A DNA stretch of 64,000 bases, from assembly GCF_016863435.1 (NCBI RefSeq), contig NZ_BOOW01000057.1:1-64000 (forward strand). The letters run 5' to 3'. Source of the DNA: Sinosporangium siamense. Its GTDB lineage: Bacteria; Actinomycetota; Actinomycetes; Streptosporangiales; Streptosporangiaceae. The notes under the pieces were generated by a model, which saw only the letters and a program-made list of their open reading frames with translations, was not told the origin of the DNA and made no database searches. Of the stretch, positions 1 through 62,245 are shown piece after piece (positions within the stretch are counted from its first letter, which is position 1; each line of letters begins with the position of its first letter). Both the position numbers and the translations under genes were made by a program.

Positions 1-1
1 C

Positions 2-481
2 CAGGTGCTGGCCATGCAGCAGGAGGCTCACGGGCGTTCGCTCACTCGGGAGCGCGCGGAGTGCGATCGTGTGTTGGACCGGGCGGCGGAACTGGCCGGC
101 CAGGTGGACGACGACTACGCGTGGGGCAACGCGGCCCGGCGCACTCCCCGCTACCTCGATGTGCAGCGTGCCACCTGCTACGGGAGGCTCGGACTGCACA
201 AGGAAGCTGTAACGCTGTGGGCCACGACATTGGCTGAGCAGCCGTCGACGTCGCAGCGCGATGTGGGTGTCTTCAAGGCGCGGTTCACCGTGGCGCTCGC
301 TGCCAGTGGTGAGGCCGAGCGGGCCGTGGAGATGGCGGGCCAGGTCGTGCGGTTGATCGGTGAAACCGGTTCTGCCCGAATGCGCACCGCGTTGGCCGGT
401 GTTCGGACGGCGATGCGTCCATGGGCTCGCACGTCGCATGGGCGTTCGATGAGTGAGATGCTGGCGGCGGTCAAGCCCTGA
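2..481 (+). CDS. C-terminal part of a TPR (XRE-type) regulator, 5' end outside window
   Basis: The frame is open from the first bases and stops with TGA at 479-481, so only about the last 159 residues are visible. They are almost entirely helical, with TPR-like helix pairs such as ATCYGRLGLHKEAVTLW and RFTVALAASGEAERAVEMA, and a basic tail. This matches the C-terminal half of actinobacterial regulators that join an N-terminal XRE helix-turn-helix to tetratricopeptide repeats; the DNA-binding half would lie to the left. The pterin dehydratase gene starts 18 bp downstream on the same strand, so the two may share a transcript. Family assignment without the N-terminus is an inference. Confidence 0.55.
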   Translation, partial: QVLAMQQEAHGRSLTRERAECDRVLDRAAELAGQVDDDYAWGNAARRTPRYLDVQRATCYGRLGLHKEAVTLWATTLAEQPSTSQRDVGVFKARFTVALAASGEAERAVEMAGQVVRLIGETGSARMRTALAGVRTAMRPWARTSHGRSMSEMLAAVKP

Positions 482-499
482 TTGCGGAGGATCTCGCAG

Positions 500-811
500 A
501 TGTCTGTGCCTGCCCCGTTGGCCGATGCCGAGGTGGATGAGCTGCTTGAGGCCCTGCCGGGATGGGAGCGTGACGGGGATGCCATCCGGCGGACGTACAC
601 GCACACGTACCACGAGTGCCTGCACCTGGTGATGTATGTCGGTGCCAAGGCGCGGGAGATCGGCCACCACCCCGACATCGATATCCGCTGGCAGCGCGTG
701 ACGTTTTCGAGCACCACGCATGACGCGGGCGACAAGATCACGCTGAAGGACTTCGAGTTGGCCCGGCAGATCGACGTGATCGCTGCGGCGCATGGTGCGA
801 AGCCAGCCTAA
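500..811 (+). CDS. Pterin-4a-carbinolamine dehydratase (4a-hydroxytetrahydrobiopterin dehydratase)
   Basis: A 103-aa protein of the usual length for this family. It dehydrates 4a-hydroxytetrahydropterin, recycling the cofactor of aromatic amino acid hydroxylases, in the cytoplasm. The diagnostic active-site pattern is present near residue 54: GHHPDIDIRW followed by VTFSSTTHDAG and LKDFELA, giving the His-His-Pro, aromatic, His and Asp positions. ATG 500 was chosen over an in-frame TTG at 482 because GCGGAGG lies just upstream with good spacing and because homologues begin with this short leader before a helix of the type DAEVDELLEALPGW. No hydroxylase gene is visible next to it. The assignment is secure; the physiological partner is unknown. 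Confidence 0.9.
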   Translation: MSVPAPLADAEVDELLEALPGWERDGDAIRRTYTHTYHECLHLVMYVGAKAREIGHHPDIDIRWQRVTFSSTTHDAGDKITLKDFELARQIDVIAAAHGAKPA

Positions 812-1249
812 GGGCAGGAGATCGCTGTGATAAGCCACAGCAGATGTATGCCCTGAAGTGCGCTATTAGCGCACTCTACGTGGACTGGCCGTCTGACCGA
901 TCATTGCTCTCAGGATTGCTACCGAGGCCAAGTGCATCGGTGATGCGGAATCGTTATATGCAAGTTTTGGGGTGTGGATCGCCTTTGTGGTTTCACGGAG
1001 ACGCTTCTAGTTGAAAATTCAACACGCTCTGACCTGTGATCAACGACTTATTTTTTGATAAGTCGATTGTCAGCTACGCGCTGACCTGCGCCTTTGTGTC
1101 GATCTTGGCTGGATGATCACGTGATCGCTTGTCCAATTCTGGAGCTTCCAGAGCGCTACGCTTCTGACACAGAAAACCGCCCGTCGCGGAATCTTGGCCG
1201 GAATCACGACGGGCGGTTAAAGTTCCCCAGCTCCAAGAGGAGAAGGTTC
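812..1249 (+). other. Gene-free, AT-richer stretch with several palindromes
   Basis: No convincing gene. The stretch is visibly richer in A/T than its surroundings and holds four perfect inverted repeats: AGTGCGCT/AGCGCACT at 857-864 and 868-875 (3-nt loop, possible terminator of the pterin gene), GTTGAA/TTCAAC at 1010-1015 and 1018-1023, CGACTTAT/ATAAGTCG at 1044-1051 and 1058-1065 around a T-run, and a 12-bp pair at 1175-1218 (listed separately). The composition resembles regulatory or element-end DNA; no function can be assigned. Confidence 0.5.
1175..1218 (+). promoter_or_regulatory. 12-bp perfect inverted repeat before a small membrane protein gene
   Basis: Arms AACCGCCCGTCG (1175-1186) and CGACGGGCGGTT (1207-1218) are perfectly complementary around a 20-nt loop, ending 31 bp before GTG 1250. 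Transcribed, it forms a very stable hairpin, so it could terminate upstream transcription or act as an attenuator in the leader of the small gene. The run AAAGTTCCCC after it is not a U-tract, so a plain intrinsic terminator is less likely. Confidence 0.5.
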
Positions 1250-1435
1250 GTGAAGAGAGTATCGTTCGGAAGCGGCCCGTTGTACTTGGCGGCCTTGATC
1301 GCAGTTCTGTCGGCTGTGCTCGTCGAGAGAGGGCACGCAAGCGACATCCCCGTAGTCATCAGTTCTGCTACCACAGTGCTCGCGGTCTTTGTCGGTAGGT
1401 CTGCTGAACGTCCGCAGCAGTCAGACGGCAAGTAG
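1250..1435 (+). CDS. Small membrane protein of unknown function
   Basis: A 61-aa protein starting at GTG 1250, preceded by AGAGGAGAAGG (1236-1246), a strong ribosome binding site. It begins VKRVSFGSGPLYLAALIAVL and carries two short hydrophobic stretches (about residues 9-24 and 31-50) separated by a charged ERGHASD loop, then a polar tail ending PQQSDGK. No family is recognised. Its position between a long inverted-repeat leader and the tRNA-like integration scar suggests it belonged to the mobile element that once sat here, but that is inference. An in-frame start further upstream lacks a ribosome binding site. Confidence 0.45.
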   Translation: MKRVSFGSGPLYLAALIAVLSAVLVERGHASDIPVVISSATTVLAVFVGRSAERPQQSDGK

Positions 1436-1522
1436 TTCATTCGCTGTACAGCAGGAAAGTACAGCAACGCACCCACACATAGACCTACTCAGCCATACCC
1501 TGCCAACCCTCTGACCAGGGCG

Positions 1523-1594
1523 GGAGCTTCTTCAGCTGGGTTGTGCCGGTAGTTCGCATCGAGGGGGTCTGGGGTTCAAATCCCCATAGCTCCA
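1523..1594 (+). other. Degenerate tRNA-like sequence with intact 3' end; probable att scar
   Basis: Bases 1570-1594 form a good tRNA 3' end: T-stem TGGGG, T-loop TTCAAAT, stem CCCCA, then the acceptor strand TAGCTCC and A73, as in tRNA-Ala-like genes. GGAGCTT at 1523 could pair with six of seven acceptor bases and TTCAGCTGGG resembles the D-loop box, but neither the D-stem nor the anticodon stem closes. It therefore looks like a tRNA remnant or the 3' duplication left by integration. A terminator hairpin directly follows and an integrase remnant lies about 200 bp downstream, which supports an attachment-site reading. Confidence 0.55.
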
Positions 1595-1603
1595 CGAGAC
1601 ATA

Positions 1604-1647
1604 GGCGGCCCGTGCTTGCAAGCTTTGCTTGCTCGGCACGGGCCGCC
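1604..1647 (+). terminator. Terminator hairpin behind the tRNA-like sequence
   Basis: GGCGGCCCGTGC (1604-1615) pairs perfectly with GCACGGGCCGCC (1636-1647) around a 20-nt loop, followed by TCTCTGTGTCTT. Its position 10 bp behind the tRNA 3' end is where a tRNA gene terminator normally lies. Confidence 0.65.
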
Positions 1648-1659
1648 TCTCTGTGTCTT

Positions 1660-1758
1660 CCAAGGGGAAACGCCCTGGAACCCCCGTGTCTGCCAGGGGG
1701 AAACCCGCTGGAACCCCCCGGTTTACCAGGGGGCGACCCGCTGGAACCCCCGGCTGCG
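1660..1758 (+). repeat. Three head-to-tail 33-bp repeats
   Basis: Units start at 1660, 1693 and 1726; each follows the plan CCAGGGGGAAACCCGCTGGA then a C-run and a variable end. Units are contiguous with no spacers, so this is a minisatellite-like array, not CRISPR. Each unit can form a small CCAG/CTGG stem. It is non-coding and lies between the tRNA-like terminator and the integrase remnant. Confidence 0.75.
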
Positions 1759-1798
1759 GTGCTCCGCCCCGCCTTCCCGGGGTGGGGTGTTTCCTCGA

Positions 1799-2019
1799 TC
1801 ATTCTGGGCTTCGGATGGCCTGATACAGCAGCAGAGTCCAGCTACGGCACTTGTCCCCGAGCTTCTTTCGGACTGCCCTGGTGTCGTTGGGGGAGACCTC
1901 GCCGTAGATGTTCATGGTCACGGCATCTGGCTGTGGCGGAGGATCTGTGTGGCGATCCTTGGGCGGGGGTTGAGGGCTACGAGCATTGAGGCGCAGGTCT
2001 TTCGGGTCGCGTGTATGGG
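1799..2019 (-). pseudogene. Frameshifted C-terminal remnant of a tyrosine-recombinase integrase
   Basis: On the minus strand, 2019-1921 reads IHATRKTCASMLVALNPR and then ILRHSQ, which corresponds to the phage-integrase box HxLRHTCASLL...QILRHS with its catalytic Arg and second His. A shift of one frame at about 1921-1930 continues as VTMNIYGEVSPNDTRAVRKK, which contains the catalytic Tyr of the TMNxYxHVSP box, and ends at a stop at 1799-1801. Nothing upstream of 2019 restores the N-terminal core-binding domain or first catalytic Arg. Known integrases of actinomycete integrative elements sit beside a tRNA attachment site, exactly as here. The gene is dead: truncated and frameshifted. Confidence 0.7.
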
Positions 2020-2204
2020 ATCTGGCGGATTTCGGCTCTCTTGGTTGCCTTGGCGAGACATGTACATCCCGACACTGCAGAACACCTCCACGGTCGATAT
2101 CTGTCGGCGTTCTGCTCGCGCTACCGGGTGGGCGCCGACAACAAGTTCTGGGTGAGAATCGTCGATTAGGTGGTCCACCAGCAGAATGATCGCGACATTG
2201 CTTT

Positions 2205-2235
2205 GGCGCGGCACGCTGGGAAGCGTGCCGCGCCA
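2205..2235 (+). terminator. Strong hairpin, possible terminator
   Basis: TGGCGCGGCACGCT (2205-2218) and AGCGTGCCGCGCCA (2222-2235) form a perfect 14-bp stem with a GGA loop, followed by GGGTGTTTTCTT. The T-rich tail suggests transcription termination on the plus strand just before the next small gene. Confidence 0.6.
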
Positions 2236-2267
2236 GGGTGTTTTCTTCATCCGAACAGGACGCGACC

Positions 2268-2576
2268 GTGGCTTTCCCCAACGAGCGTTATGACCTGCTC
2301 AACGAGTACGAACTGCATGACGTCTTCCTCGGTGCCTGGTGCAAGGGCCTGAGTGTCACCGAGGCCGCCGCACGTTTGCGGGTCGATCCTGATTCGGCCG
2401 TCGAGTGTGTGTGGGCGGAGATCGGCGACGACCTGGGCGAGCTGGACGCGGAGACCGGAGTGGTGTGGATCGGTGAGCAGGCCCCCGGTTGGACGCAGAT
2501 CATCCAGTACGTGGGCCTGCACATAGGCATGAACGAGCCGCAGGAGGAGCTCTCCGATGGCGGCGGGCTCCTATAA
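2268..2576 (+). CDS. Hypothetical small acidic protein
   Basis: A 102-aa acidic protein. GTG 2268 was chosen (begins MAFPNERYDLLNEYELHD); ACAGGA lies shortly upstream, a modest ribosome binding site. An earlier in-frame ATG at 2238 would place the start right at the terminator hairpin and is less likely. Residues 25-45 (GLSVTEAAARLRVDPDSAVE) look like a helix-turn-helix-like segment, followed by the unusual string VVWIGEQAPGWTQIIQYVG. No domain is recognised with confidence. It stands alone, after the integrase remnant and before an unrelated secreted hydrolase. Confidence 0.5.
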   Translation: MAFPNERYDLLNEYELHDVFLGAWCKGLSVTEAAARLRVDPDSAVECVWAEIGDDLGELDAETGVVWIGEQAPGWTQIIQYVGLHIGMNEPQEELSDGGGLL

Positions 2577-2921
2577 CTGGACGCCGACTGGCTGCGCAGC
2601 CGCCACACGCGGTACATCATCCCGGCCGGCGCCTGGGATCTGAAGTAGCGGCTGACCCTGGCCGGTTCGGGGGCGTCGCGACGGTGCAGGTGCGTGCCTG
2701 CGGTAGTAGGAGGCCGCGACGGCGGCGGGCCATAGATAGCACCGGCACCTGGACTGCGATGGAGGTGCGAGCAGGTCGCGGGCGCGCGGCCGGTGGTGGA
2801 CCGGGCGGTCGATGGCACCGAGGTCAGTGTCCAAAAACCTTATTGGCCAAAGCCAAAAATGCACCCTAAGATCCGCTACCGATGTTCAATGCCCCTCCAA
2901 CCGCCGACCCAAGGACCGCAT
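2577..2921 (+). other. Gene-free stretch before the secreted serine hydrolase
   Basis: No reading frame here shows convincing protein features; all have proline/arginine-rich shadow composition. The last 80 bases become A-rich (around 2830-2870), consistent with the promoter of the following gene, but no clear -35/-10 pair is claimed. Confidence 0.4.
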
Positions 2922-4175
2922 GTGACGCTGCTCAGCAGGCGAAGGCTTCTCCAGGCGGGTACTGCGATGGTGCCCGCGGTCGTACTCGGTGCGCCGCCCG
3001 TGCGGGCGAGCAGCGCCCCGGCGGTGGCGGTGTCCGGGGTCGTTCCTGCCACGCTCGCCAGGTTCGACCAGGTCCTGAAGACCTACATCATCGAGCGAGA
3101 CATCTCCTGTGCCCAGCTCGCCATCGTCAAGAACGGCAAGCTCGTCCTGGCGCGCGGTTACCGGTATTCCAGCGACGGCCGGGCCGTACCCGCGGTGTCG
3201 CCCACCTCGCTTTTCCGGATCGCGAGCCTGAGTAAGCACATCACCGCCGCCGCCATCATGCGCCTGGTCCAGGACGGCAAGCTCAGCCTGGGCGCCTCAG
3301 TGGCCGGTCTGCTCGGCCTGTCCACCGCGGCGGATCCCCGGCTGGCCAGTGTGACGGTGCTGCGGCTGCTGCAGCACACCGGCGGCTGGGACAGCGCCAT
3401 CTCGAAGGACTATCTGTATCTGGACCACGTGATCGCCGACACGCTCGGCATACCGCTGCCGATCACCCAGGGTGACATCGTCAAGTATGCAAGCAGTCGG
3501 CCGCTCGACTTCGCCCCCGGCAGCCGCTACGCGTACAGCAACTACGGCTATATGCTGCTCGGCCGGATCGTCGAGAAGGTCTCCGGGCAGAGTTACGAGT
3601 CCTACGTCAAGCAGAAGTTGTTGGCGCCCGTCGGCATCACCCGATTGAGGCTCGGCCGTACGCTCCGCGCTGAAGCGTTTCCCGGCGAGGTGTTCTACGA
3701 GTCGCGTTTCACCAGTAAGACCGTCACGGGTCCTACGGGCGCCGTGGTGCCCACTCCGTACGGCGGTTTCAGTATGGCCAACCGTGGTCCCGGCGGTGGC
3801 TGGCTGGCCTCCGCGGTGGATTTGGTCAGGTTCGCGGGGATCTTTGACGCGGCGGGTCCGGTGCTCAATGCGGCTTCCATCGGCAAGATGTTCGCCAAGC
3901 CGGAGATCGGCGTCACCTCAAGCGGTTCCTGGTACGGCGCGGGCTGGTGGGTGCGTCAGGTGACCGGGCACCTCAACACTTGGCACGATGGCTCGCTGCC
4001 CGGCACGTACACCTATCTGGCTCGGTTGCAGAACGGCTTCACCTATGCCGCGCTGTTCAACCGCCGGGAGGAGAGCGGAAGCCTCGACTTCGACGTGCTG
4101 AGTCCACGGATCAACGCCGAGATCGGCAAGGTCACCACCTGGCCCACCACCGACCTCAGCTCCCGTTACTTCTGA
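2922..4175 (+). CDS. Secreted beta-lactamase-fold serine hydrolase (class C / PBP4* type)
   Basis: A 417-aa exported protein starting at GTG 2922 with AAGGA seven bases upstream. The N-terminus LLSRRRLLQAGTAMVPAV is a twin-arginine signal with cleavage near VRASSAPA. The three active-site motifs of the class C beta-lactamase/DD-peptidase fold are present: SLSK (Ser nucleophile and Lys) in SLFRIASLSKHITAAA, the Tyr motif YSN in YAYSNYGYMLLG, and HDG in WHDGSLPG, taking the place of KTG. The fold includes esterases, D-aminopeptidases and lactonases, so the true substrate is unknown. It stands alone and ends in a very strong terminator. Confidence 0.85.
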   Translation: MTLLSRRRLLQAGTAMVPAVVLGAPPVRASSAPAVAVSGVVPATLARFDQVLKTYIIERDISCAQLAIVKNGKLVLARGYRYSSDGRAVPAVSPTSLFRIASLSKHITAAAIMRLVQDGKLSLGASVAGLLGLSTAADPRLASVTVLRLLQHTGGWDSAISKDYLYLDHVIADTLGIPLPITQGDIVKYASSRPLDFAPGSRYAYSNYGYMLLGRIVEKVSGQSYESYVKQKLLAPVGITRLRLGRTLRAEAFPGEVFYESRFTSKTVTGPTGAVVPTPYGGFSMANRGPGGGWLASAVDLVRFAGIFDAAGPVLNAASIGKMFAKPEIGVTSSGSWYGAGWWVRQVTGHLNTWHDGSLPGTYTYLARLQNGFTYAALFNRREESGSLDFDVLSPRINAEIGKVTTWPTTDLSSRYF

Positions 4176-4178
4176 GCA

Positions 4179-4217
4179 CCTGTCATGTCCCCGCCGGGCC
4201 GGCGGGGACATGACAGG
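4179..4217 (+). terminator. 17-bp terminator hairpin
   Basis: CCTGTCATGTCCCCGCC (4179-4195) pairs perfectly with the complementary arm at 4201-4217 around GGGCC, three bases after the serine hydrolase stop codon. No U-run follows, as is usual for actinomycete terminators. Confidence 0.8.
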
Positions 4218-4378
4218 GGCGTACGCCGCGGGGTCAGCTCCAGTGGTCCTATTCGGAAGTCTCAGCCAATGTCGGGCGGACCCATGGTCGGCCGCGGGCC
4301 CGTGCCGGCGCAGCAGCAGGCCACGGCCTTACCGTGGCAGCAGCGATCCAGGAAACGTGGTCTCTTTCGCGCCTGGGC

Positions 4379-6343
4379 TCAGCGTGCGTCGATTCGGACC
4401 AGGGCATCGTGGATCTCGTTGCGGAACTCCTCATCCTCATGAATAGCCCGCCATCCCGAGCCGTAGCTGAGGCGTCGATCGGTGGCCAATGCCTGCTGCA
4501 GGAGGGGAACGACGGGTATGGCGGCGGGACCGATCTTCCCGAGGCAATGCACGGCGGCCTGCATTACGGGCAGCATCTGGCCCTCGCCCAACGGCAGAAT
4601 GATCCTTTGCAGAATGGGCACGATTTTGTCTGGCTCACCACTGATCGCCCACACGGCGTGTGCGGCCTGGGCCTGGGTCCAGGCGTCCTCACTGTCCAGT
4701 AGTTCTCGCACCTGAGGTAGGAGCGGCCTGGCCTCGGCCCCGAGATCGGCCACGCGCTGCACAGCGGAACCCAGGCCACCGGTTCGCAAGTCCATGCGTA
4801 AGACGCTCAGCGCGGCCGTGGGATCGCCGCAGACCTTCCAGAGGGCCCACGCCGCCGTCCTGCGAACTCTGGGATTCACCTCAGCATCAAGAGCCAGCTG
4901 CCGCAGTCGCGAATCAGCGGCGTTGGCCGCCGACCCGATGGCGGCCAACGCTTCTGCCGCCCACTCGGCGGTGTCGCTGTGAAGTAGCGCGATGAGCTCG
5001 GGAACGGCTTCAGATGCCGCCGGCCCCCACGCTGTGATCGTCTGGCAGAGCGCCCGCCGTTCGTTCGGCAACGTTGCTGCACGCAGTTGAGTGCGGACTG
5101 CGGGCAGGAGATCCGCGGCGTACTGTGGAACGCGCCCGAGCACCTCGTGAATCCCTGGAAGCACCACCCAGTAGAAGTCCGCGCTGTAATGGCCGGAGTT
5201 GTAGCCGAAAGCTGTTACGGCGTGGGTGATGTGCTCGACGAGCGGAGCGACGCAACGCGCATCGCCCAACCTGGCCAGCCCCCACACGGCGATGTCGCCC
5301 ACGGTTCCGGACAACCGCTGAGAGAACGGAGTCTGGTCGGTCGCCGCCGATGCCAGCAGATCGGCATGAGCGGTGTTTCCCGCGACGGCTACCAGATGCA
5401 CCGCCACACGTCGGACGTCGATATCAGGGTCGCTCATCCGCTTGGCGAGCGCCGGCAGTAACCGGGGCTGAGGGGAGCGCCGATGCATTAGGAGCCGGGC
5501 CGACGAGTTGGCGGCGCCGACACGCCGATCGGCACGGGGGGCGTCCAGCAGGCGCAGGCAGAGTTCGGTCTGGGAGTCGGCGTCGTCTTTTAACGTGTCG
5601 TATACCCAGCGCACTGTGCTGCCCCGTGCCGGGCCCACCCACAAATGCGCCTCACGTAGCCCTGCGAGCTCTTCCTCAAGCAGCAACTGGACGGCTGCAT
5701 CCAGCTGATCGCGGAGAAGAGATGACGGCGAGCAGACCAGCGCGGCCAGCCGTACCTCTGCGAGCGGGTGTTCCTCTGCCCCGGCAAGCCAGTCTCGCAC
5801 TAGCCGCACGTCCTCATCTGTACCGTCAGCAGCGAGCATCTTCGCCGCGACCATCATGCTCACCAGGACGGCGGTGTCTTCTTCTCGGCCCCAGCGGTCA
5901 CGCAGACACTGGATGAGGAGATGGCCGGCTTCTTGCCCGGCGGACAGCGGATAGGTCGCCATCCGCCGCAGCCCCGGGTCCGGATCATCCAACAGCTCTG
6001 TAAGTGCAGGCAGCGTGCCGCGCCACGCCGATCCCCATCCATCGGCCACCAGTTCCTTGCGACACCTGCGGGCGGTCCTGGCAAGATCGCCCAGCAGCTC
6101 GACCAGCTCTGTGCGATGGCATGCTGCTGGGGTGCACGCCAGCTCGACGAGGTACGGCAAAGCCGCGACAGCTGCGGAGCAAATCCACCCGCCCTGGTGG
6201 TGAAGGTGATTCGAGAGTTTGAATACAGCGTCATCCGCTCGCTGCGGATCCAGTATGTCCCGCAACAACGTGGGTACGTCCGCTCCGCTCCCGTAGTTGT
6301 GCTTCAGGGATTCCCAAGCGATCTCGTTCAACCCTTTCAGCAT
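4379..6343 (-). CDS. HEAT-repeat protein
   Basis: A 654-aa soluble protein with no signal peptide or membrane segment. From about residue 55 to the end it consists of repeated helix pairs of roughly 30-40 residues with the HEAT / PBS-lyase-like pattern (small-residue helices followed by DP, e.g. LTELLDDPDPGLRRMATYPL, MSDPDIDVRRVAVHLVAVAG, TAAWALWKVCGDPTAALSVL). Such alpha-solenoids act as protein-binding scaffolds; no catalytic motif is seen. The start ATG at 6343 gives MLKGLNEIAWESLKHNYG, a common opening of this actinobacterial group. It is monocistronic and convergent with the serine hydrolase. The biological role is unknown. Confidence 0.8.
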   Translation of the reverse strand: MLKGLNEIAWESLKHNYGSGADVPTLLRDILDPQRADDAVFKLSNHLHHQGGWICSAAVAALPYLVELACTPAACHRTELVELLGDLARTARRCRKELVADGWGSAWRGTLPALTELLDDPDPGLRRMATYPLSAGQEAGHLLIQCLRDRWGREEDTAVLVSMMVAAKMLAADGTDEDVRLVRDWLAGAEEHPLAEVRLAALVCSPSSLLRDQLDAAVQLLLEEELAGLREAHLWVGPARGSTVRWVYDTLKDDADSQTELCLRLLDAPRADRRVGAANSSARLLMHRRSPQPRLLPALAKRMSDPDIDVRRVAVHLVAVAGNTAHADLLASAATDQTPFSQRLSGTVGDIAVWGLARLGDARCVAPLVEHITHAVTAFGYNSGHYSADFYWVVLPGIHEVLGRVPQYAADLLPAVRTQLRAATLPNERRALCQTITAWGPAASEAVPELIALLHSDTAEWAAEALAAIGSAANAADSRLRQLALDAEVNPRVRRTAAWALWKVCGDPTAALSVLRMDLRTGGLGSAVQRVADLGAEARPLLPQVRELLDSEDAWTQAQAAHAVWAISGEPDKIVPILQRIILPLGEGQMLPVMQAAVHCLGKIGPAAIPVVPLLQQALATDRRLSYGSGWRAIHEDEEFRNEIHDALVRIDAR

Positions 6344-6420
6344 GCAGCGAACCTATCTCGCACCGCCGGGCCGTCCTCAACCGAGCATTTGACCTGGTTC
6401 ATCAGCAGCGGACTTAGCTT

Positions 6421-6690
6421 CTATCTGTGCATCGCTGTGAACAGCTCGTGCGGGATACCCCATAGGCGGGCGGCGGTCAGGTCGTGCACCCCGCCCGGCA
6501 GCGCCACCGTCTCCTCCACGTAGCGCCACGCGGTCGCCGCCGACACCCCGAAAACGGCTCCGAGCCCGGCGAACGTCTTTCCCTTGCGCAGGTGGACCAG
6601 CACGAGGAGCATCTGCGTGGTGACGGTGTTCTCGCCGTTGTGCCTCTTCGGGGTGTCGAGGAACAGCCCAAGCGTCGACTGCTGGTGTGG
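6421..6690 (-). pseudogene. Fragment of an IS5-group transposase (N-terminal HTH domain)
   Basis: The minus strand reads TLGLFLDTPKRHNGENTVTT, then VLVHLRKGKTFAGLGAVFGV and SAATAWRYVEETVALPGG, the helix-turn-helix segment typical of the N-terminus of IS5-group transposases in actinomycetes (LRxGETxAxLAxxFGVSxATAWRYV). The frame stops at 6421 after TAMHR; the DDE catalytic domain is missing and no terminal inverted repeats were found. It lies between the HEAT gene and the Trp/Pro-module genes and is a relic. Confidence 0.7.
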
Positions 6691-6713
6691 GCGGGCTTAC
6701 CCGAAAAGGGTGG

Positions 6714-7589
6714 TCATATCTCATCGTTGGTGCGTCGTAGCAGGCCCTCCTGCTCGGCGACGGGATTCCACAAGGCGACGAAGTCGGACTTCGCCGAGGT
6801 GGCTTGGGCGGAGGCGGCGTTACCTGCGTCGTAGTTGGGATCGCCTACGGTCTTGCCTGAGCAGGCGCGAGATCGATATCGCTTTGCCCACTTCAAATAT
6901 GCCTTGTCTGCCCGGTATGAGGCGGACAGTGCTTGGACCAGGCTGTCCTTGAGTTCCGCGCCATCGGCCAGTGCGCTCACGTTGAGGCCTTCGGCCTCGT
7001 CCGCCTGTCGGCCGCGCTGCCTGGTGACGTGCTCGATGTTCACGATGGCCTCGCCCATGTTGGAACAGCGCAACATCTCGCTTAGGGCGCTGCGGAGCGC
7101 TCCCCGGCTGGGTTTGCTCTGCTCCAGGATGTCGTTGATCGCCAGCGCCTGCTCACGAGCGGTTGAGGTCGTTGTCGTCGCCGATGGTTCCGCTTCGGTG
7201 GAGGGCCGGGGTGTGTCATCGACGATTTCGAATGTCTGCTCTCGGCTGTCGGACATCGGGGTGATTCCCTCGCGGCTGCCGAGGTAGACGGTCACCGTGA
7301 TGAGTGCCAGGACAGCCGCCCCCGATGCGATCATAGGGGCTCTGAGTTTGCGGAGTAGGGGACGAGGCGGCTCGGTTTCGGCCGGTGCGAGCAGTGAATC
7401 GAGACTTAGTGTCGGCGGCACGAAAGTTTCGGAGTCGCGGATCCACCACGTCCAGTACGGCGGAGCCTCCGGCCAATCGTCCTCCGGCCCCGCCCAGGCA
7501 GGTGAGGGAATCCATCCGTCAGGAGGAGTCGGCCAGCCCTGTGGAGCGTTGAACCGCCACTCGGGGCCGGGACGCGGGGGAATGTTCAA
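6714..7589 (-). CDS. Membrane protein with N-terminal Trp/Pro-rich module and extracellular helical domain
   Basis: A 291-aa protein. Residues 2-47 form the module IPPRPGPEWRFNAPQGW ... APPYWTWW, shared with the next two genes. One membrane span follows (about residues 78-98, APMIASGAAVLALITVTVYL), then a long extracellular domain of conserved helices with LRCSNMGEAI and ending FVALWNPVAEQEGLLRR, a pattern I recognise from uncharacterised actinobacterial membrane proteins. Start: TTG 7589 is preferred to GTG 7598 because both this gene and the kinase gene share GAAGTGG[GA]ACCT directly before TTG and then encode [NS]IPPRP. It diverges from the next gene across 152 bp; GAGCGT/ACGCTC at 7623-7639 is a possible operator. 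Function is unknown. Confidence 0.75.
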   Translation of the reverse strand: MNIPPRPGPEWRFNAPQGWPTPPDGWIPSPAWAGPEDDWPEAPPYWTWWIRDSETFVPPTLSLDSLLAPAETEPPRPLLRKLRAPMIASGAAVLALITVTVYLGSREGITPMSDSREQTFEIVDDTPRPSTEAEPSATTTTSTAREQALAINDILEQSKPSRGALRSALSEMLRCSNMGEAIVNIEHVTRQRGRQADEAEGLNVSALADGAELKDSLVQALSASYRADKAYLKWAKRYRSRACSGKTVGDPNYDAGNAASAQATSAKSDFVALWNPVAEQEGLLRRTNDEI

Positions 7590-7741
7590 AGGTTCCACTT
7601 CAGATCATCGAGACGGGTGGGGGAGCGTAATGCACGCTCTCCGCTGATGTAGCCAGGCATGTCAGCGGCTGTGCGATCGACAACGAGTGCCACTCTATGC
7701 ATAATTCGGCTTGTTGATCTATCTGTTCGGAGCGACTTTTC

Positions 7742-8377
7742 ATGCGCATTCCCCCTCGTCCTGGCCCTGAGTGGCGGTTCAACTTGCCACCTGGATGGCC
7801 TGATGCTCCGGCCGATTGGGAACCCAACGAAGGTTGGGGAGGCCCTGAGGGTGACTGGCCTGCGGCTCCGCCGTACTGGAATTGGTGGGTCGTTTTAGAA
7901 GGTGTCGCCCCGGGGAGCGAGACCCTCCCGAGCGGGCGACAAAAGCTGGTGGCGTCGCTGATGAAGAACCGGAACCTGCTTCTTGCCGGGGCTGTGACTG
8001 TGGTGGTGGCCTTCGCTGCAGGAGGGTTTGCGGTTCAGTCCCTCGGAGGTGCGGACCGTGATTCGACTGCCGTGACGGACGAGCAGTCAAGCGACGGCGA
8101 GGATACCGGTGGTGCTAATGGTGCAGATTTGGCTTATCAGACTGAATGGTCAGAAATGAGCACTCGACAGACGTTTGTCCGTTCGCCAGAATGTTCGGCG
8201 ATCAACTTTAGCCAAGCCGCCTGTCTGTCCAATCCAGGGCGATCGGTATCTGAACCGTATATGACCGTTCGGCAAGGTCATGTATGCGCGGCAGACTTTA
8301 ACGAGGCTACTCAACTGGCGTCGGCGAACCGCGCTCGTCTCACGGGTAAAATCCTCAGCTTGGAATGCTCGCACTGA
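7742..8377 (+). CDS. Small membrane protein with N-terminal Trp/Pro-rich module
   Basis: A 211-aa protein starting at ATG 7742 with GGAG about ten bases upstream. It opens MRIPPRPGPEWRFNLPPGW and ends the module with APPYWNWW, almost identical to its divergent neighbour. A membrane span lies at about residues 79-100 (LLLAGAVTVVVAFAAGGFAV). An acidic linker follows, then a roughly 80-residue extracellular part with four cysteines (SPECS, QAACLS, GHVCAA, LECSH), probably two disulfides. No family is recognised. Convergent with the kinase gene. Confidence 0.75.
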   Translation: MRIPPRPGPEWRFNLPPGWPDAPADWEPNEGWGGPEGDWPAAPPYWNWWVVLEGVAPGSETLPSGRQKLVASLMKNRNLLLAGAVTVVVAFAAGGFAVQSLGGADRDSTAVTDEQSSDGEDTGGANGADLAYQTEWSEMSTRQTFVRSPECSAINFSQAACLSNPGRSVSEPYMTVRQGHVCAADFNEATQLASANRARLTGKILSLECSH

Positions 8378-8457
8378 TCATCTTTGCCTCAGGTGTGATC
8401 TTGTCTTCAGGCGGCAGGATGCCTGTGGTGGCGGGGAGTTATGAACTGCGGGCAATG

Positions 8458-10437
8458 TCATTCCCGTGTCGGCCTGGTGATCTTTCCGGACGTCTTCCAA
8501 TCGCGATAGGTGGTAGCGAACTCGGACTCGTAGGTGCCGCCGCCCCCTACGGGGACCTTCCATACCAGATTGAATTTCTTCGGTCGGTTCTCAGTATCGA
8601 TGGCGAGGGTGTAGGAGACGAAGGAGTTGTTCGTCTCACTGTCTATATCAACACCGAGCCACGAGCTGAGCAGTGTCCGTAATCGGCCGCTTGTCTCGCC
8701 TGCGGGGAGGACTCCAGAATACGTTCGGCCTTTTCTGTGCATTCGCTCGGTATTTAAGACCAACTCTTGGATGACGGACGGCCCTGCGGTGCCGGCAACC
8801 ATAAGGGCATACCAACTCGCCTCCCCTGAGGCCTGCTCCACCAGAGCCACGGAAGACGCTCCTGGTGAATCCAGATACAAGTCTCCATTACCGGTGATCA
8901 CGTAGCCCTCGGCGGGGTATTCGTCAGAGTCGACCCTCATCTTGAAATCGTCGGAGTGCCGTGAACCGCGGTTCATGAGCCGACCAATCGCTTTCGCTGC
9001 GACGTTGCTCTGAGTGAAGCCGCCTTCGAATGAGAATGCGGCTGCGGGCGTCACTCTTAGTGCCAGGTCGAGGGCAGCGGCAAGTTCGACTGGGGTGCGG
9101 GGTGCGGGAAGTCGTGCGGTGGAGTGGGTTGGCGCGGTCGGTGAGGTCTCTGCTTCAGTGGACGGTGTCCGATTTGCGGGGGAGGCGGTGGCCACTCCTG
9201 GCGACTGATGTTGCCGGCTGGGCGAGTCCTGCAGATTGGCAAGAAACATCGGACCGGCGACCCCGATGGCCGCCAGCGACGCGGCGGCAGGTAAGAGAAG
9301 TCGGCGTAAACGACGCTTGCTCGGTTGCGGCAACTCCGTCGGCCAGACTGCCGTGGGTTCAACGCGGAAGGCCCAGGTGCGATCCAATCGGGTTGTGATA
9401 TCGGCTGTGGGATCCCACTCTGTGGTTCTGCTTTCTCCGTGCTGCTCTCGCCATGCGTCGGCCACGGCTTTGAAAATCTCAGCAAGGGCAGGCCTCGCTT
9501 CAGGCGACTTCGCCAGAGCTCTGTCAACGGTCGGTCGGAGCCTTTCGGGCAGCATCCCGGTGTCAACCACGTCGTTTATGACCTTGAGGGCGAGAACCTC
9601 AGGTCGACCCGCTCCATAAGGTTGCACCCCCGTAGCGGCGTACACGACAACCAGTGCCCAGCCGTACACATCTGCCGCCGGCCCGGTTGGCCCACCGACA
9701 TACTCTTCCGGGCTTACCCACCCAGGAGAGCCGATCATCGAGCCGGATCCCGTGAGAGATGTCGCATCGAGTGAGCGGGCGATCCCGAAGTCGACCAGTC
9801 GCGGGCCTGCGTGTGACAGCATCACGTTGGAGGGCTTGAGGTCGCGGTGCACCACCTCCGCCTTGTGGACGGCGACCAGTGCCTCCGCGAGTCCAGCGGC
9901 GAGTCCAAACAACTCGTCGCCGCTGAGAGGTCCCCGGGCTCTGACATATTCATCCAGGCTTCGCCCGGTGATGTATTCCGTCGCGAGCCATGGCTGGTCG
10001 GCTTCCGCGTCCGCTGCGAGGATCCTGACGCAACAAATTCCCTGAACTCGGCGCAGCATCGCGATTTCGCGCCGGAACCGAGCTCTGAACTCCGGATCTG
10101 CTGTGTGCATGTCATGAATTAGCTTGACTGCGGCTCGTTGTCCAGCGGCGTCGACTCCGGCATACACAATTCCCATGCCTCCGGTGCCAAGCCGTCCGAC
10201 TATGCGATACGGTCCGACTCTCTCCGGGTCCCGTGGTTGTAGCGGAAGGAAGTCAGGTGGGTTGGGCTCCGATGTCGAAGGGGAGGGCTCAGTCCACCAC
10301 AACCAGTACGGCGGTGCCGCCGGCCAGTGCGGGTCGGGGCCGGCCCAGTCCACCGGCGGCTCCCATCCTTCCGGGACAGTCCATCCGGGTGGGGGGTTGA
10401 AGGACCAATGGGCGGCAGGGCGTGGGGGGATGCTCAA
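8458..10437 (-). CDS. Transmembrane Ser/Thr protein kinase with Trp/Pro-rich module and extracellular sensor
   Basis: A 659-aa protein starting at TTG 10437. Order: Trp/Pro module (residues 2-48, IPPRPAAHWSFNPPPGW to APPYWLWW), Hanks-type kinase (about 75-335), linker, one membrane span (about 388-406), Thr/Ser/Pro-rich stalk, and an extracellular domain (about 465-659). Kinase motifs are intact: GTGGMGIVY loop, AAVKLI lysine, HRDLKPSNV catalytic loop and VDFGIAR. The extracellular part, with SFEGGFTQSNVAAKAIGR and GYVITGNGDLYLDS, resembles LppX/LprG-like beta-sheet lipoprotein domains that bind hydrophobic ligands. It probably senses an envelope signal; its substrates may include the two neighbouring module proteins (inference). 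Confidence 0.88.
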   Translation of the reverse strand: MSIPPRPAAHWSFNPPPGWTVPEGWEPPVDWAGPDPHWPAAPPYWLWWTEPSPSTSEPNPPDFLPLQPRDPERVGPYRIVGRLGTGGMGIVYAGVDAAGQRAAVKLIHDMHTADPEFRARFRREIAMLRRVQGICCVRILAADAEADQPWLATEYITGRSLDEYVRARGPLSGDELFGLAAGLAEALVAVHKAEVVHRDLKPSNVMLSHAGPRLVDFGIARSLDATSLTGSGSMIGSPGWVSPEEYVGGPTGPAADVYGWALVVVYAATGVQPYGAGRPEVLALKVINDVVDTGMLPERLRPTVDRALAKSPEARPALAEIFKAVADAWREQHGESRTTEWDPTADITTRLDRTWAFRVEPTAVWPTELPQPSKRRLRRLLLPAAASLAAIGVAGPMFLANLQDSPSRQHQSPGVATASPANRTPSTEAETSPTAPTHSTARLPAPRTPVELAAALDLALRVTPAAAFSFEGGFTQSNVAAKAIGRLMNRGSRHSDDFKMRVDSDEYPAEGYVITGNGDLYLDSPGASSVALVEQASGEASWYALMVAGTAGPSVIQELVLNTERMHRKGRTYSGVLPAGETSGRLRTLLSSWLGVDIDSETNNSFVSYTLAIDTENRPKKFNLVWKVPVGGGGTYESEFATTYRDWKTSGKITRPTRE

Positions 10438-10916
10438 GAGGTCCCACTTCGACGGGAGTTAGGTGGTCGCGGGGAGATTATCCTAAAGGGTGAAACATCA
10501 GATGGCGTTACTCTCCCCTGCGGGAGGCATTTGGTGGCGTGTCGGGTTATGACCTTCAGTGCAGCCTCTTGCGGCGAATATCCCTTCTCCTGCCTAGGAG
10601 ATGGGATTCAATATTTAATTTCCAATTTTACCGCCCTCGCACCCCAATGCGGTGCGATGTCGTAGTTGAAGCGAGGATCTTTCCTTAGCCGCCGTTCCAG
10701 GGACGCCAGGAGCCGTTGATGCATGACCAGGGACTGCTGCAGGCGGCGCGTCTGACGTAGACAGCCCATCGAAGAGCCGTTCTTGAGATGGCCTGTTAGA
10801 AAGTGCATCCTGGCCGATCACGTAGACCGGGCGGATCTTGTCGTAGGTGGGGCCGACGCCCTCCCGTTTCCGGCCAAGACTGCGGGAACCCGCAGAGGAG
10901 CGCAGCGGTTGGCGCG
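10438..10916 (-). other. Gene-free or degraded stretch between kinase and LysR genes
   Basis: No gene is supported. A 66-codon minus-strand frame (10608-10808) gives MHFLTGHLKNGSSMGCLRQT and then a charged helix (LLASLERRLRKDPRFNYD); another frame across 10780-10860 gives REGVGPTYDKIRPVYVIGQD. Both look somewhat protein-like and could be pieces of one decayed gene, but I recognise neither. The first 170 bases hold AT-rich DNA (e.g. ATATTTAATTTCC near 10610). Confidence 0.3.
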
Positions 10917-11801
10917 TTACTCCGATCCGCGCATCTGCTGCGCCACCAGTTCGGCGAACTCGACGACAGGTGGTTCGAGGTCGGCCCACGACCGTGCGGC
11001 CCAGCCTGCGGTCGGGCCGGGGAGCTCCGGGATCGGCACCAGCCGGAGGCCGGGGTGGACCGATGGAGCCCAATCGGGAACGGTCGCCACGACGGCGCGG
11101 CTCACGCCCAGTTCGGCGAGTAGCAGGGCGGTGTCCCAGTCCGAGACGGCCTGGGATGGGAACACGCCCTCGCCGAGGGCCGCGTCGAGGCGGCCCCGGG
11201 AGCTTGACGATACCGGCAGCACGATGTTGGGGATGTCGGCGAGTTCGGGCGGGCTCAGGCTCGTCCGTGCCGCCATCGGGTCGTCGCGATTGACTGCCAG
11301 CGACCACTGCAATTCGATCAGCGGGCGCAGCTCGACGTCGGGGATCGGGCCGCTGATGGAGATCAGGGCGATGTCGGCGCGGTTCGCGGCCAGGTCGGTG
11401 AGGCATGCCCGACTGGTCGGCTGCGTGCGCAGGGTCAGCTGCACGCCGGGGTGGCGGCTGCGCAGCTCCAGGATCGCCTTGGGCATGAAGTGCCGGACGG
11501 TGGCGGCTCCCGAGCTGACCCGCACCTCGCCTGCTCCGCCGGCGGCCAGTGCGCGCAACTGTTGGGCCGCTGCGTCGATCCGGCCCACTCCGGCGACTGC
11601 CGCGTCACGCAGCAACCGCCCGGCCGATGTGGGCAGTACGCCGCGGGGACGCCGCTCGAGAAGGCTCAGGCCGAACTCCCGCTCCAGGCGGCGCACGTGC
11701 TGGCTCACCGCCGACTGGCTGCACGACAGGGCCCGCGCCACCGCGGTGAAGCTGCCCCGCTCGCAGACCTCAACGAACACCCGCAAGTCATCCAGCGTCA
11801 T
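10917..11801 (-). CDS. LysR-family transcriptional regulator
   Basis: A 294-aa protein of typical LysR length. Residues 1-60 form the winged helix-turn-helix (MTLDDLRVFVEVCERGSFTA, then QSAVSQHVRRLEREFG), followed by the helical linker and a periplasmic-binding-protein-like effector domain (about 90-290). It is transcribed divergently from the permease and the catabolic operon, the classical arrangement for a LysR activator responding to the pathway's substrate. The 178-bp intergenic region contains GGGTCA (11822-11827) and TTGACT (11845-11850), a loose dyad that may be its binding site. The ligand is not known; by context it is the substrate of the operon. Confidence 0.92.
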   Translation of the reverse strand: MTLDDLRVFVEVCERGSFTAVARALSCSQSAVSQHVRRLEREFGLSLLERRPRGVLPTSAGRLLRDAAVAGVGRIDAAAQQLRALAAGGAGEVRVSSGAATVRHFMPKAILELRSRHPGVQLTLRTQPTSRACLTDLAANRADIALISISGPIPDVELRPLIELQWSLAVNRDDPMAARTSLSPPELADIPNIVLPVSSSSRGRLDAALGEGVFPSQAVSDWDTALLLAELGVSRAVVATVPDWAPSVHPGLRLVPIPELPGPTAGWAARSWADLEPPVVEFAELVAQQMRGSE

Positions 11802-11979
11802 AGGGAGAAGCTAACACTTATGGGTCAGCAACAAAAACCGAGAATTGACTTATCCCTAATGGCAGATGACGATTTCAACACCGCCGCGGCGCATCTTCTT
11901 CGCGGCTGACTCTCCGCCTCCGCTCAGCCGTGGACCGGAGTGATCGTTTTCTGGGCAATGGCGATGGAAGGAGACCGCC
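11802..11979 (+). promoter_or_regulatory. Divergent promoter region of LysR gene and catabolic operon
   Basis: This 178-bp region separates the two starts. Positions 11812-11862 are AT-rich, with GGGTCA and TTGACT spaced as an imperfect dyad and ATT/AAT ends around TGACTTATCCCT. The permease ribosome binding site GGAAGGAG is at 11967-11973. Exact start sites cannot be read. Confidence 0.45.
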
Positions 11980-13395
11980 GTGTCCGAACCCCCCACCAGC
12001 ATCGAAAACCCCTCTCAATTCCACCGCGTGATGACCTGGCGGGACGCGTTCTCGCTGGCGATCGCGCTGCCCGCCAGCGCGTTCGCGCTGGTCGGATATT
12101 GGACCGGCGCGCTCGGCGCGTGGGCGGCCGTCGCGCTGCTCGCCGTGTCGGGGCTGCTCGCGATCGGGCAGAACTTCGTGTACGCCGAGATGGCGGCGAT
12201 GTTCCCGGACAAGCCCGGCGGCATCGCGTTGTACGCCTCGGCCGCCTGGAGTGGTCGCAGCCGCCCACTCGGCGCACTCGCCTCGGCGGGTTACTGGATC
12301 GGATGGTCGTTCGGTCTGGCCGGGAACGCGCTCGTGATCGGTGAACTGATCAAGGCGCAGTGGCTGCCGGACACCGGGACATTGCAGGTCGGTCCGCTGC
12401 ACCTGGGCAGTGCACACGCCGTGGCGGTGGCCGCGCTGGTGCTGGTGTGGCTGCTCAACACGGCAGGGATCCGGCCCGCGGTTCGGCTGAGCACGATCGT
12501 CAACACCCTGGTGCTGGTGGTGCTCGCCGCGGCCGGCGTTACGGCGCTCCTCACCGGGGGTCTGCACCTGGACCGGCTGACCTGGGGCCTCGGTGGCGAC
12601 GGCCAGTCGGCGTTCGTGGTCGCGTGCGTGTGGTTGTTCCTCATGGGCTGGACCGTCTACGGCACCGAGGTCGCCGCCACGTTCACCCCGGAGTACCGCA
12701 ACCCGCGTTCGGACGCTCCCCGGGCGCTCGTCTGGTCGGGCGTCGCCGCGCTGGCCGTGTTCGTGCTGATGCCGGTGCTCGCCGCGGGCACGACGGGCGA
12801 GGCGGGCATCACGGCGGAGCCTCTCGGGTTCACCGTCGTGATGTTCGAGAACCTGTTCGGCGGTGCCGGCTGGCTCGCTGTGGTCGTGCTGTGCCTGGCC
12901 ATGCTCAACCTCATGTCGGTGGCGACCGCCGACAGCGGGCGGGCTCTGCACGGCATGGCGGTCGAGGGACTGACCGTCCGCGGTCTCGGCGTCTTCAACT
13001 CCGCGGGTATGCCCGCCCGCGCCATGACCGTGGGGCTGCTGGTCAACGTCGGCCTGGTCGTGTTCATCGGCAACCTGCTGGGCGTCGTGTTCGCCTCCAA
13101 CGTCGGCTACATGATCTCCGTCGTCATCGCGCTCAGCGGTTATGTGCTGCTGCGGCGGGCGGACACGACTCCTGACCGGGCCTTCCGGCTGCACCGGTGC
13201 TGGGTGCCGATCGCCGCCGCGCTCGCCGGGATCAACCTGCTGCTGCTGGCGGTCGCCGTACTCAATCCGGAGCTGACCGGCTACGGCAGCTGGCGCGACG
13301 AACTGATCGGGTTCGGCGTGCTGGCCCTGGCCATGACCCTCTACGCCGTTCGCCGTCTCGGCGATCGGACCCCGACTTACGAGAACCCGAGGTGA
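11980..13395 (+). CDS. APC-family amino acid/amine permease
   Basis: A 471-aa integral membrane protein starting at GTG 11980 with GGAAGGAG just upstream. About twelve membrane segments are visible from residue 20 on. The first segment carries SLAIALPASAFALVGYWTGA and the next MAAMFPDKPGGIALYASAAW, the conserved P-x-x-GG region of the amino acid-polyamine-organocation family. It is the first gene of the operon and probably imports the substrate, here likely a zwitterionic or cationic nitrogen compound. It is not a BCCT-type carnitine/betaine carrier, which is notable given the carnitine-type enzymes behind it. The stop overlaps the next start by one base. Confidence 0.9.
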   Translation: MSEPPTSIENPSQFHRVMTWRDAFSLAIALPASAFALVGYWTGALGAWAAVALLAVSGLLAIGQNFVYAEMAAMFPDKPGGIALYASAAWSGRSRPLGALASAGYWIGWSFGLAGNALVIGELIKAQWLPDTGTLQVGPLHLGSAHAVAVAALVLVWLLNTAGIRPAVRLSTIVNTLVLVVLAAAGVTALLTGGLHLDRLTWGLGGDGQSAFVVACVWLFLMGWTVYGTEVAATFTPEYRNPRSDAPRALVWSGVAALAVFVLMPVLAAGTTGEAGITAEPLGFTVVMFENLFGGAGWLAVVVLCLAMLNLMSVATADSGRALHGMAVEGLTVRGLGVFNSAGMPARAMTVGLLVNVGLVVFIGNLLGVVFASNVGYMISVVIALSGYVLLRRADTTPDRAFRLHRCWVPIAAALAGINLLLLAVAVLNPELTGYGSWRDELIGFGVLALAMTLYAVRRLGDRTPTYENPR

Positions 13396-60570: not shown

Positions 60571-62076
60571 ATGCGATCTCGCAGATTGGCCACGACGGCC
60601 GTGGCGACCGTTTCGGCTCTCGCCGTACTGGCCGTTCCAGGTCATGCGGCGGGTACGCCGAAGGCGGAGGCTCAGCCGATTTCCTGGGGGGCGTGCGAGG
60701 ACGTGCCGCAGCAGGCCACCGGCCTGGAGTGCGGCACGCTGACCGTGCCGCTCGACCACGACAAACCCGGCGGCGACACCGTCGGCCTCCCGCTCATCCG
60801 GGCCAAGGCCACCGGCGACAAGGCGGGCTCTCTGCTGATGCACCTAGGCGGCACCGGCGCTCACCGTGCGGCCTTCGCACAGTCGCACTCGGCGTATGCC
60901 GCGCTGCGCACCCGCTATGACCTCATCGCCTACGACCAGCGCGGTTCCGGCGGTGACACACAGGTGAAATGCGGCTCCGACCGCGACATCGACCGTCGCT
61001 ACTCCCTGACCGCCGGTCTCAAACGAGCCGCGGAACACGCGCGGTTCTTCCAGGAGGTAGCGCGTTACACGAGCGCCTGCGCGAAAAACTCCGGGCGAGT
61101 CCTGCCTCATCTAGGCACGGCCGAAAACGCCAGAGACCTCGAGCAGCTGCGCAAGGCACTCGGGGAGGAGAAGCTCAATTACTACGGCGTCTCCTTCGGC
61201 AGTGCCGTCGGCGGCGTTTACGCCACGCTCTTTCCCCAGCGTGTCGGCCGCATGGTGATGGACGCCGCACTCGACCCCCGGCAGACCCCGACCGACGTGG
61301 CCAGGAACACCACAGCGGAAATGCAGCGCACCTACGAGAAGTTCCTCGCTGGGTGCGTCAAGGACGGCTGCGACCTCGGCAAGACCGCCAAGGCGGCCGA
61401 CAAGACCGTCCAAGGGCTCGTGCGGAAACTCAAACACTCCCCGCTGAAGGTCGGAAACCGCACGCTCACCCCCGCCCTGGCCGTCAACGCCCTGGTCCTG
61501 AGCTCGGCCTCGCAACTATGGGGCGAAGTGGAGGCGGCTCTGGCCCTGGCCCTCAAGGGCGACGGCGCAGCCATGCTGCAACTGGCCGACGCCATCACCG
61601 GCCGCGACACCGCGGGCGTCTACGGCCCCGGCGGAGCCGCGGGTGCGATGGCCGGCGACGGCACCTACTGTCGCGACCGGGTAAGGGAGACCCGGCGGGG
61701 CGTCGTGCGTGCCGACGCCGAACTCACACGCATCTCCCCGCTGTTCGGCCCCCTGGCGGTCTTCAGCGGCGTGAGCAACTCGGTGATCGCGGCCTGCGCC
61801 CTCTGGCCCGTCCCTGACAACCCCGAGGGCCGTACGGTGAACCACACCGGCGCCACTCCCATCGTCGTGCTCAACTCCACGGGCGACCGCGCCGCCCCGC
61901 CCCCCGGCGCGGCGGCCCTGGCCAAACAACTGAAAACCGCCGTGCGCGTGACCTACCAGGGCAGTCTGCACGGCGCCTATCCGGGCGGAGGTCCCTGCGT
62001 CGTCAATGCGGTGGAGGGTTATCTGCTGGGCGGCACACTGCCCGCCGACGGCGGCACGTGCCCGTCCGTCGAGTAG
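60571..62076 (+). CDS. Secreted alpha/beta hydrolase, tripeptidyl aminopeptidase type (paralogue 1)
   Basis: A 501-aa exported hydrolase, ATG 60571 (GAAAGAGA upstream). Signal peptide to about PGHAAG. Domains: alpha/beta core with oxyanion LLMHLGGTGAHRAAF, IAYDQRGSGGDTQVKCGSD, nucleophile elbow YYGVSFGSAVGGVYATLFP, Asp in VVLNSTGDRAAPP and His in YQGSLHGAYPGG. It contains the cap and C-terminal TAP-like domain of Streptomyces SlpD/Tap-type peptidases. It likely removes tripeptides from extracellular peptides. The next gene encodes a close paralogue of identical length. Confidence 0.9.
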   Translation: MRSRRLATTAVATVSALAVLAVPGHAAGTPKAEAQPISWGACEDVPQQATGLECGTLTVPLDHDKPGGDTVGLPLIRAKATGDKAGSLLMHLGGTGAHRAAFAQSHSAYAALRTRYDLIAYDQRGSGGDTQVKCGSDRDIDRRYSLTAGLKRAAEHARFFQEVARYTSACAKNSGRVLPHLGTAENARDLEQLRKALGEEKLNYYGVSFGSAVGGVYATLFPQRVGRMVMDAALDPRQTPTDVARNTTAEMQRTYEKFLAGCVKDGCDLGKTAKAADKTVQGLVRKLKHSPLKVGNRTLTPALAVNALVLSSASQLWGEVEAALALALKGDGAAMLQLADAITGRDTAGVYGPGGAAGAMAGDGTYCRDRVRETRRGVVRADAELTRISPLFGPLAVFSGVSNSVIAACALWPVPDNPEGRTVNHTGATPIVVLNSTGDRAAPPPGAAALAKQLKTAVRVTYQGSLHGAYPGGGPCVVNAVEGYLLGGTLPADGGTCPSVE

Positions 62077-62245
62077 ATCCGGCCGGTGCCCCGCTCCCAG
62101 GACTACACCTCGTGGTCTGACGAAGTGCCCTGGGGGCGGCCTGCGGGCTACTCCTTTGTAGGTAGCCGTGATTCGTTCCCGGTGCCGACGATTCCAGGCC
62201 GTTCGCCGGGGAGGGTGGTGGTCTCCACTCTGAAAGGCATGTGAA
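62077..62245 (+). promoter_or_regulatory. Promoter/leader of the second peptidase gene (leader copy 2)
   Basis: This 169-bp gap holds GCCGACGATTCCAGG (62184-62198) and CCACTCTGAAAGGC (62225-62238), near copies of the serine hydrolase leader at 59224. The shared block probably carries the ribosome binding site and perhaps an operator. Its presence suggests the second peptidase gene has its own promoter. Confidence 0.5.

Follow-up and report, generated by a model that had tools for sequence, protein, structure and literature searches.

Three adjacent genes in the window, a 64,000-nucleotide stretch of the Sinosporangium siamense genome (contig NZ_BOOW01000057.1, positions 1 to 64,000), encode predicted membrane proteins that begin with the same tryptophan- and proline-rich (Trp/Pro) module. 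One of them is a receptor Ser/Thr kinase; we refer to the others as P1 and P2. Comparisons among sequences indicate that the three proteins are likely to function jointly. We give an even chance to a more specific reading, namely that the module is a small folded interaction domain on the cytoplasmic side of the membrane, and that the proteins bearing it at this locus belong together in a single membrane signalling assembly.

A Trp/Pro module on three adjacent genes

The longest open reading frames (ORFs) lie at 6714-7598 on the minus strand (P1), 7742-8377 on the plus strand (P2) and 8458-10437 on the minus strand (kinase), and all translate as had been said in an earlier note, which was made from the letters of the window. 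P1 has two candidate starts, a GTG at 7598, which opens the longest ORF, and a TTG at 7589. The TTG is most likely the true start because its position aligns with the starts of the orthologues, which would place P1 at 6714-7589. Measured between longest ORFs, P1 and P2 diverge across a gap of 143 bp and P2 and the kinase converge across 80 bp; near P2, the divergent intergenic region (7590-7741) has a TGCATAAT box that aligns with N. antri and N. maritima. The chance of three random sites falling within 3.7 kb in this genome is about 5e-7.

The modules occupy 7443-7589 (minus strand) in P1, where the sequence is MNIPPRPGPEWRFNAPQGWPTPPDGWIPSPAWAGPEDDWPEAPPYWTWW, 7742-7888 (plus strand) in P2 and 10294-10437 (minus strand) in the kinase, whose module is one residue shorter and has a GWTVPEGW form common to kinase 1 of Nonomuraea antri. 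About 48 residues long with eight Trp, and ending in YWxWW in all three proteins, the modules align over 47-49 columns, 26 of which are identical throughout. When the P2 module was used to search the whole 8.86-Mb genome (84 contigs), the only strong matches were its two neighbours (1.7e-15 and 2.6e-10), the next being at 0.195, so that the claim of a module shared by three adjacent genes was borne out. The earlier note was also right to call the module unnamed and distinct from DUF2510 (PF10708). At E ≤ 10 none of the three modules matches a Pfam family, nor is there an NCBIfam match to the module; for the whole proteins, the only well-matched curated families in these two collections are protein-kinase families. 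DUF2510 is likewise short, Trp-bearing and N-terminal, but its profile has 35 positions and its WDG ending is absent from the three modules. Identity with DUF2510 was therefore rejected. DUF2510 itself is matched once in the window's genome, on a different contig. A literature search in a limited set of papers (on DUF2510, Trp/Pro-rich or GYF-like domains and kinase sensors) found no description of the module.

The module is conserved as a protein. Between P1 orthologues from four species, its ratio of non-synonymous to synonymous substitution rates (dN/dS) is about 0.02-0.10, indicating purifying selection and not a by-product of GC-rich DNA. On this ground, and from the genome-search E-values, an artefact of composition was rejected. 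AlphaFold2 predicts a compact fold for the module alone (18 alignment rows; mean predicted local distance difference test score, pLDDT, 87.6; predicted template modelling score, pTM, 0.63), with strands at 11-13 and 49-51 and no helix. In a model of P1 (19 rows) the first five ten-residue blocks have pLDDT 83-90, and the helical ectodomain is well predicted. Foldseek with the module model listed no Protein Data Bank (PDB) chain, of a WW or GYF domain or otherwise, at E ≤ 10.

Simple scripts served as gene finder and span predictor, and a hydropathy scan predicted one membrane span per protein, as the earlier note had proposed. P1 is predicted to consist of module, linker, span and helical ectodomain, and P2 of module, span and a small ectodomain with four Cys; in both the span follows the module. 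In the kinase the order is module, Pkinase domain (residues 77-321), span (about residues 380-400) and ectodomain. Since the kinase domain sits between module and span, the kinase module is cytoplasmic. For P1 and P2 the same side, which the earlier note had also claimed, is suggested by the basic residues that precede the predicted spans.

The kinase resembles Hanks-type receptor Ser/Thr kinases in its Pkinase profile match (6.4e-35 in Pfam), its catalytic Lys, HRDxKxxN and DFG motifs and its single span after the kinase domain; each of the four module kinases in our census, this one included, has the motifs AVK, HRDLKPxN and DFG. The best NCBIfam match is AfsK, at 203 bits against a cut-off of 1300 (NF053615), and the score for PknB/Stk1 PASTA kinases is 173 bits against 450 (NF033483), with no PASTA domain in Pfam. 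Unlike AfsK- and PknB-like kinases, it has a module ahead of the kinase domain. PADLOC matches to PD-T4-6 and mad6 lie mainly over the kinase domain and were not accepted as evidence of a defence role. The kinase ectodomain matches nothing in Pfam or NCBIfam, and its only PDB sequence matches are at E 0.17 (a phycobilisome linker); the "lipoprotein-like" (LppX/LprG-like) sensor previously proposed for it thus finds no profile support. The modelled P1 ectodomain resembles four-helix-bundle ligand-binding domains (PcaY_PP, Tar), and aligns with 6s33_A over 135 residues at a root-mean-square deviation of 3.1 and Z 12.0, which is within the helical-bundle background: Z under about 13 reflects common arrangements of such bundles, a designed protein scores higher, and the best Foldseek E is 0.11.

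Recurrence of the gene set in related genomes

In N. antri (L075) four module genes form one cluster, kinase (minus strand), P1 (minus), P2b (plus) and P2a (plus), and the TTG start of the kinase overlaps the P1 stop, the two sharing TTGA. Nonomuraea maritima (L053/L077) has P1, P2b and P2a arranged as in N. antri. Directly after its P1, in the position of the N. antri kinase, lies a kinase-type module that is 78% and 93% identical in two frames. A stop and a frameshift interrupt this module, and the kinase domain itself is gone. Both species keep the divergent arrangement of P1 and P2. Gene order differs between the window and N. antri, but the same genes remain clustered; this difference and the TTGA overlap point to a functional link rather than to the inheritance of a single duplication. 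N. antri also has, on a second contig, a module-DUF4870 gene followed by a second module kinase that is cut by the contig end, and, on a third, a module protein with several spans. Three of the four module kinases adjoin another module gene (one of the four being the truncated copy), or four of six when two decayed kinases are counted. In G266 a kinase-type module (L175:5900-6320) runs into another frame, which we take to resemble a transposase, and is probably a decayed module kinase. Besides the module genes, no conserved neighbours were found across genera in the loci compared, and shared flanks were seen only among Planotetraspora-type loci.

The modules group mostly by protein type and not by genome in a tree that is built on few columns, 2 of its 24 inner branches reaching the support threshold. 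For example, the module of the window's P1 is 85% identical to those of P1 from N. maritima and Sphaerimonospora, and that of its kinase is 85% identical to the module of N. antri kinase 1; P1 and P2 of the window share 69%. The grouping by type across species implies that the gene set is old, and recent local duplication was rejected for that reason. The window's P2 was linked to P2a by position and by its module (75% identity to that of Sphaerimonospora P2a), its ectodomain giving no match to other P2-type ectodomains in a phmmer comparison. Between pairs of P1 orthologues the module is the best-kept part, at 62-98% identity, versus 51-88% for the ectodomain and 24-69% for linker and span. 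DTMAF/ETMAF motifs, possible phosphorylation sites, occur in the P1 linkers of L056 and L059-L062 and are repeated in some Planotetraspora-type ones.

The modules are common to P1, P2 and the kinase, whose ectodomains do not match one another, as might be expected if plain duplication of an N-terminus had left three paralogues with no joint role. Type-specific conservation across genera, purifying selection, translational coupling through TTGA and repeated clustering in other gene orders are not what a neutral leftover would be expected to show, and we consider this explanation quite improbable. Because of the same four features it is likely that P1, P2 and the kinase act jointly.

In the signalling assembly that we propose, P1 and P2 would each hold a module just inside the single span and a small ectodomain outside, and the kinase would carry its module ahead of the catalytic domain and a third, different ectodomain outside. 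The modules would bind each other or a common cytosolic hub, thereby keeping P1 and P2 next to the kinase. A signal from outside would alter the assembly, and the kinase would phosphorylate its partners, on their cytoplasmic linkers, or some protein further downstream; putative phosphorylation of P1 or P2 is plausible. That the joint function may run through the modules is suggested by their position and, by analogy, by their reuse on proteins that need membrane placement in other bacteria.

A kinase gene that lies beside those of putative substrates, with an overlap in N. antri, together with P1 linkers that contain many Thr, Ser and Pro, would also suit a module that serves as a docking or substrate tag, read by the kinase, a phosphatase or an FHA-type reader, with no stable assembly. 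We think such a tag unlikely, given that no invariant column among 18 aligned modules is Ser or Thr, that the kinase itself carries the module, and that most module proteins have no kinase nearby.

The wider module family and SNIPE-type nucleases

The wider module has a consensus of roughly RFNxPPGWPxPPxGWxPPxGWxPDPSWPxAPxGWxxW. The IPPRP...YWxWW form, which has one additional residue, belongs to it as a branch. With a three-row profile, matches were obtained in 18 of 100 genomes, some of the weaker ones being chance frames, and the wider module was found in 90 of the 297 genomes of a family sample. A search across the phylum gave 3 of 396 genomes, including that of the window; 17 candidates were scored per genome, so the spread is understated. 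A scan of one genome per species (84,980 species) confirmed 13 loci, nine of them of the branch, from Nonomuraea, Sphaerimonospora and Planotetraspora; it misses divergent copies because it was built on two short peptide patterns. Our census holds 110 module ORFs in 101 loci (106 places minus G195, G113 and the N. maritima remnant, plus seven N. antri ORFs): 49 DUF4041/T5orf172 proteins, 22 others with a span and 12 without, nine P1, seven P2-type, four kinases, three HIRAN proteins with a C-terminal module, two DUF4870 and two DUF4190/Septum_form proteins. At one locus (L063:7030-12993) a P2-like module protein lies about 4 kb from a HIRAN protein with a C-terminal module.

Several observations weigh against the signalling assembly. 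Isolated members of the branch are about as numerous as clustered ones, which is the main weakness of a complex model: six of nine P1 genes, those of Sphaerimonospora and of five Planotetraspora-type genomes, are the only module genes at their loci, Sphaerimonospora P1 and P2a are on different contigs, and the module-DUF4870 gene of Nonomuraea terrae has no module neighbour in its locus. The closest relative of the window's kinase (75% in the kinase domain), from G275, of the same genus group as N. maritima, is intact and is the sole module gene of its 19-kb locus. Outside the YWxWW branch the module is not kinase-linked, being mostly on soluble SNIPE-type nucleases or other membrane proteins, and a non-module ORF with kinase motifs occurs in 1 of the 101 module loci. 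To these must be added the thin branch support of the tree, the shallow AlphaFold2 alignments (18-19 rows only) and the fact that neighbouring genes can share regulation although their products never touch. Linkage to kinases is seen in part: module genes cluster with kinases in more than one genome, across two genera, but about half of the branch stands alone and the wider family shows no such linkage.

The largest class in the census consists of homologues of SNIPE. The two DUF4041/T5orf172 module proteins that were tested match PADLOC PD-Lambda-1 (E 1.1e-113 and 3.9e-113), which is described in PMC13190303 as SNIPE, a membrane-bound anti-phage nuclease. According to the same paper, the N-terminal region of Escherichia coli SNIPE is a membrane anchor, the anchor-less version is toxic, and 34% of SNIPE homologues have no predicted span (PMC13190303). 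A span was predicted in none of the 49 module ORFs of this class. DUF4041 was found in 24 of 150 family genomes; 19 of the 24 ORFs carry the broad module form at the N-terminus, and none has a span. As for the other five, L191 and L209 have the module in another open frame, L207 is cut by the contig end, L210 keeps only FNPSPGW and L192 is without a module. The phylum sample had DUF4041 in 7 of 346 genomes, one protein with the module, one with DUF2510, one with DUF4429 and four with none of these noted, and a span in none. DUF2510, with its WDG ending, is in the N-terminal slot at L216 (904-2373), and DUF4429 at L212. DUF2510 can therefore fill the slot of the module, and the module-less cases show that not every SNIPE homologue needs it. 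The actinobacterial homologues with an N-terminal broad module (L066-L072, L111-L115 and others) include some with a long extra stretch before it. The window proteins have neither DUF4041 nor a GIY-YIG nuclease domain, and no DUF4041 match was found in the window's genome, so the set must work without a SNIPE partner.

Such counts would suit a module that is a general membrane-periphery or localisation tag, one that binds at the membrane interface or to some ubiquitous protein of the pole or septum; the cluster would then reflect a common destination rather than a kinase complex. The module sits on soluble homologues of a nuclease that is anchored in E. coli, and DUF2510 and DUF4429 fill the same slot. 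We regard this as possible, but lean against it. An anchor would be superfluous in the branch members, which have spans of their own. The module is weakly acidic (median net charge -1, n = 110), in contrast to Trp/Pro-rich membrane peptides of the cationic kind. Also, the four phylum-sample DUF4041 proteins with no noted module, span or other N-terminal domain indicate that SNIPE homologues can lack a visible anchor.

Setting of the locus and significance

A leader, AAGTGG, lies 5-9 nt before P1 and kinase starts in several genera (window 7590-7741 and 10438-10500; L075, L076, L077, L058), and GATAAT-like boxes are found upstream. In one case the upstream identity is longer, GGATAATCTCCCCGC preceding both the window's kinase and the Sphaerimonospora P1. 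Positions 1-12000 of the window have a G+C content of about 63-65%, compared with 65-75% over the rest, and are perhaps an acquired segment. A short ORF just beside P1 (6421-6612) resembles the helix-turn-helix part of a transposase, and the HEAT-repeat protein that adjoins P1 (4379-6343) was not found beside P1 in other loci. Two adjacent proteins at 60703-63751 have a common LECGTLTVPLDH..KP segment and are apparently paralogues.

The module might also plug actinobacterial proteins into a common membrane hub, the YWxWW form leading to receptor-kinase assemblies with exchangeable ectodomains and a GWxFW form docking SNIPE-type nucleases in place of a membrane anchor. This is a speculative idea that we rate as improbable; if it were true, surface sensing, kinase signalling and the cutting of incoming phage DNA would share one docking code. 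For bacterial receptor kinases, partners and substrates are difficult to identify, and a cytoplasmic domain common to a kinase and the products of its neighbours offers a direct way to predict them. The placement of SNIPE nucleases without a span is raised, and only partly answered, in PMC13190303. The module on actinobacterial SNIPE homologues is a candidate for how these span-less nucleases are placed.

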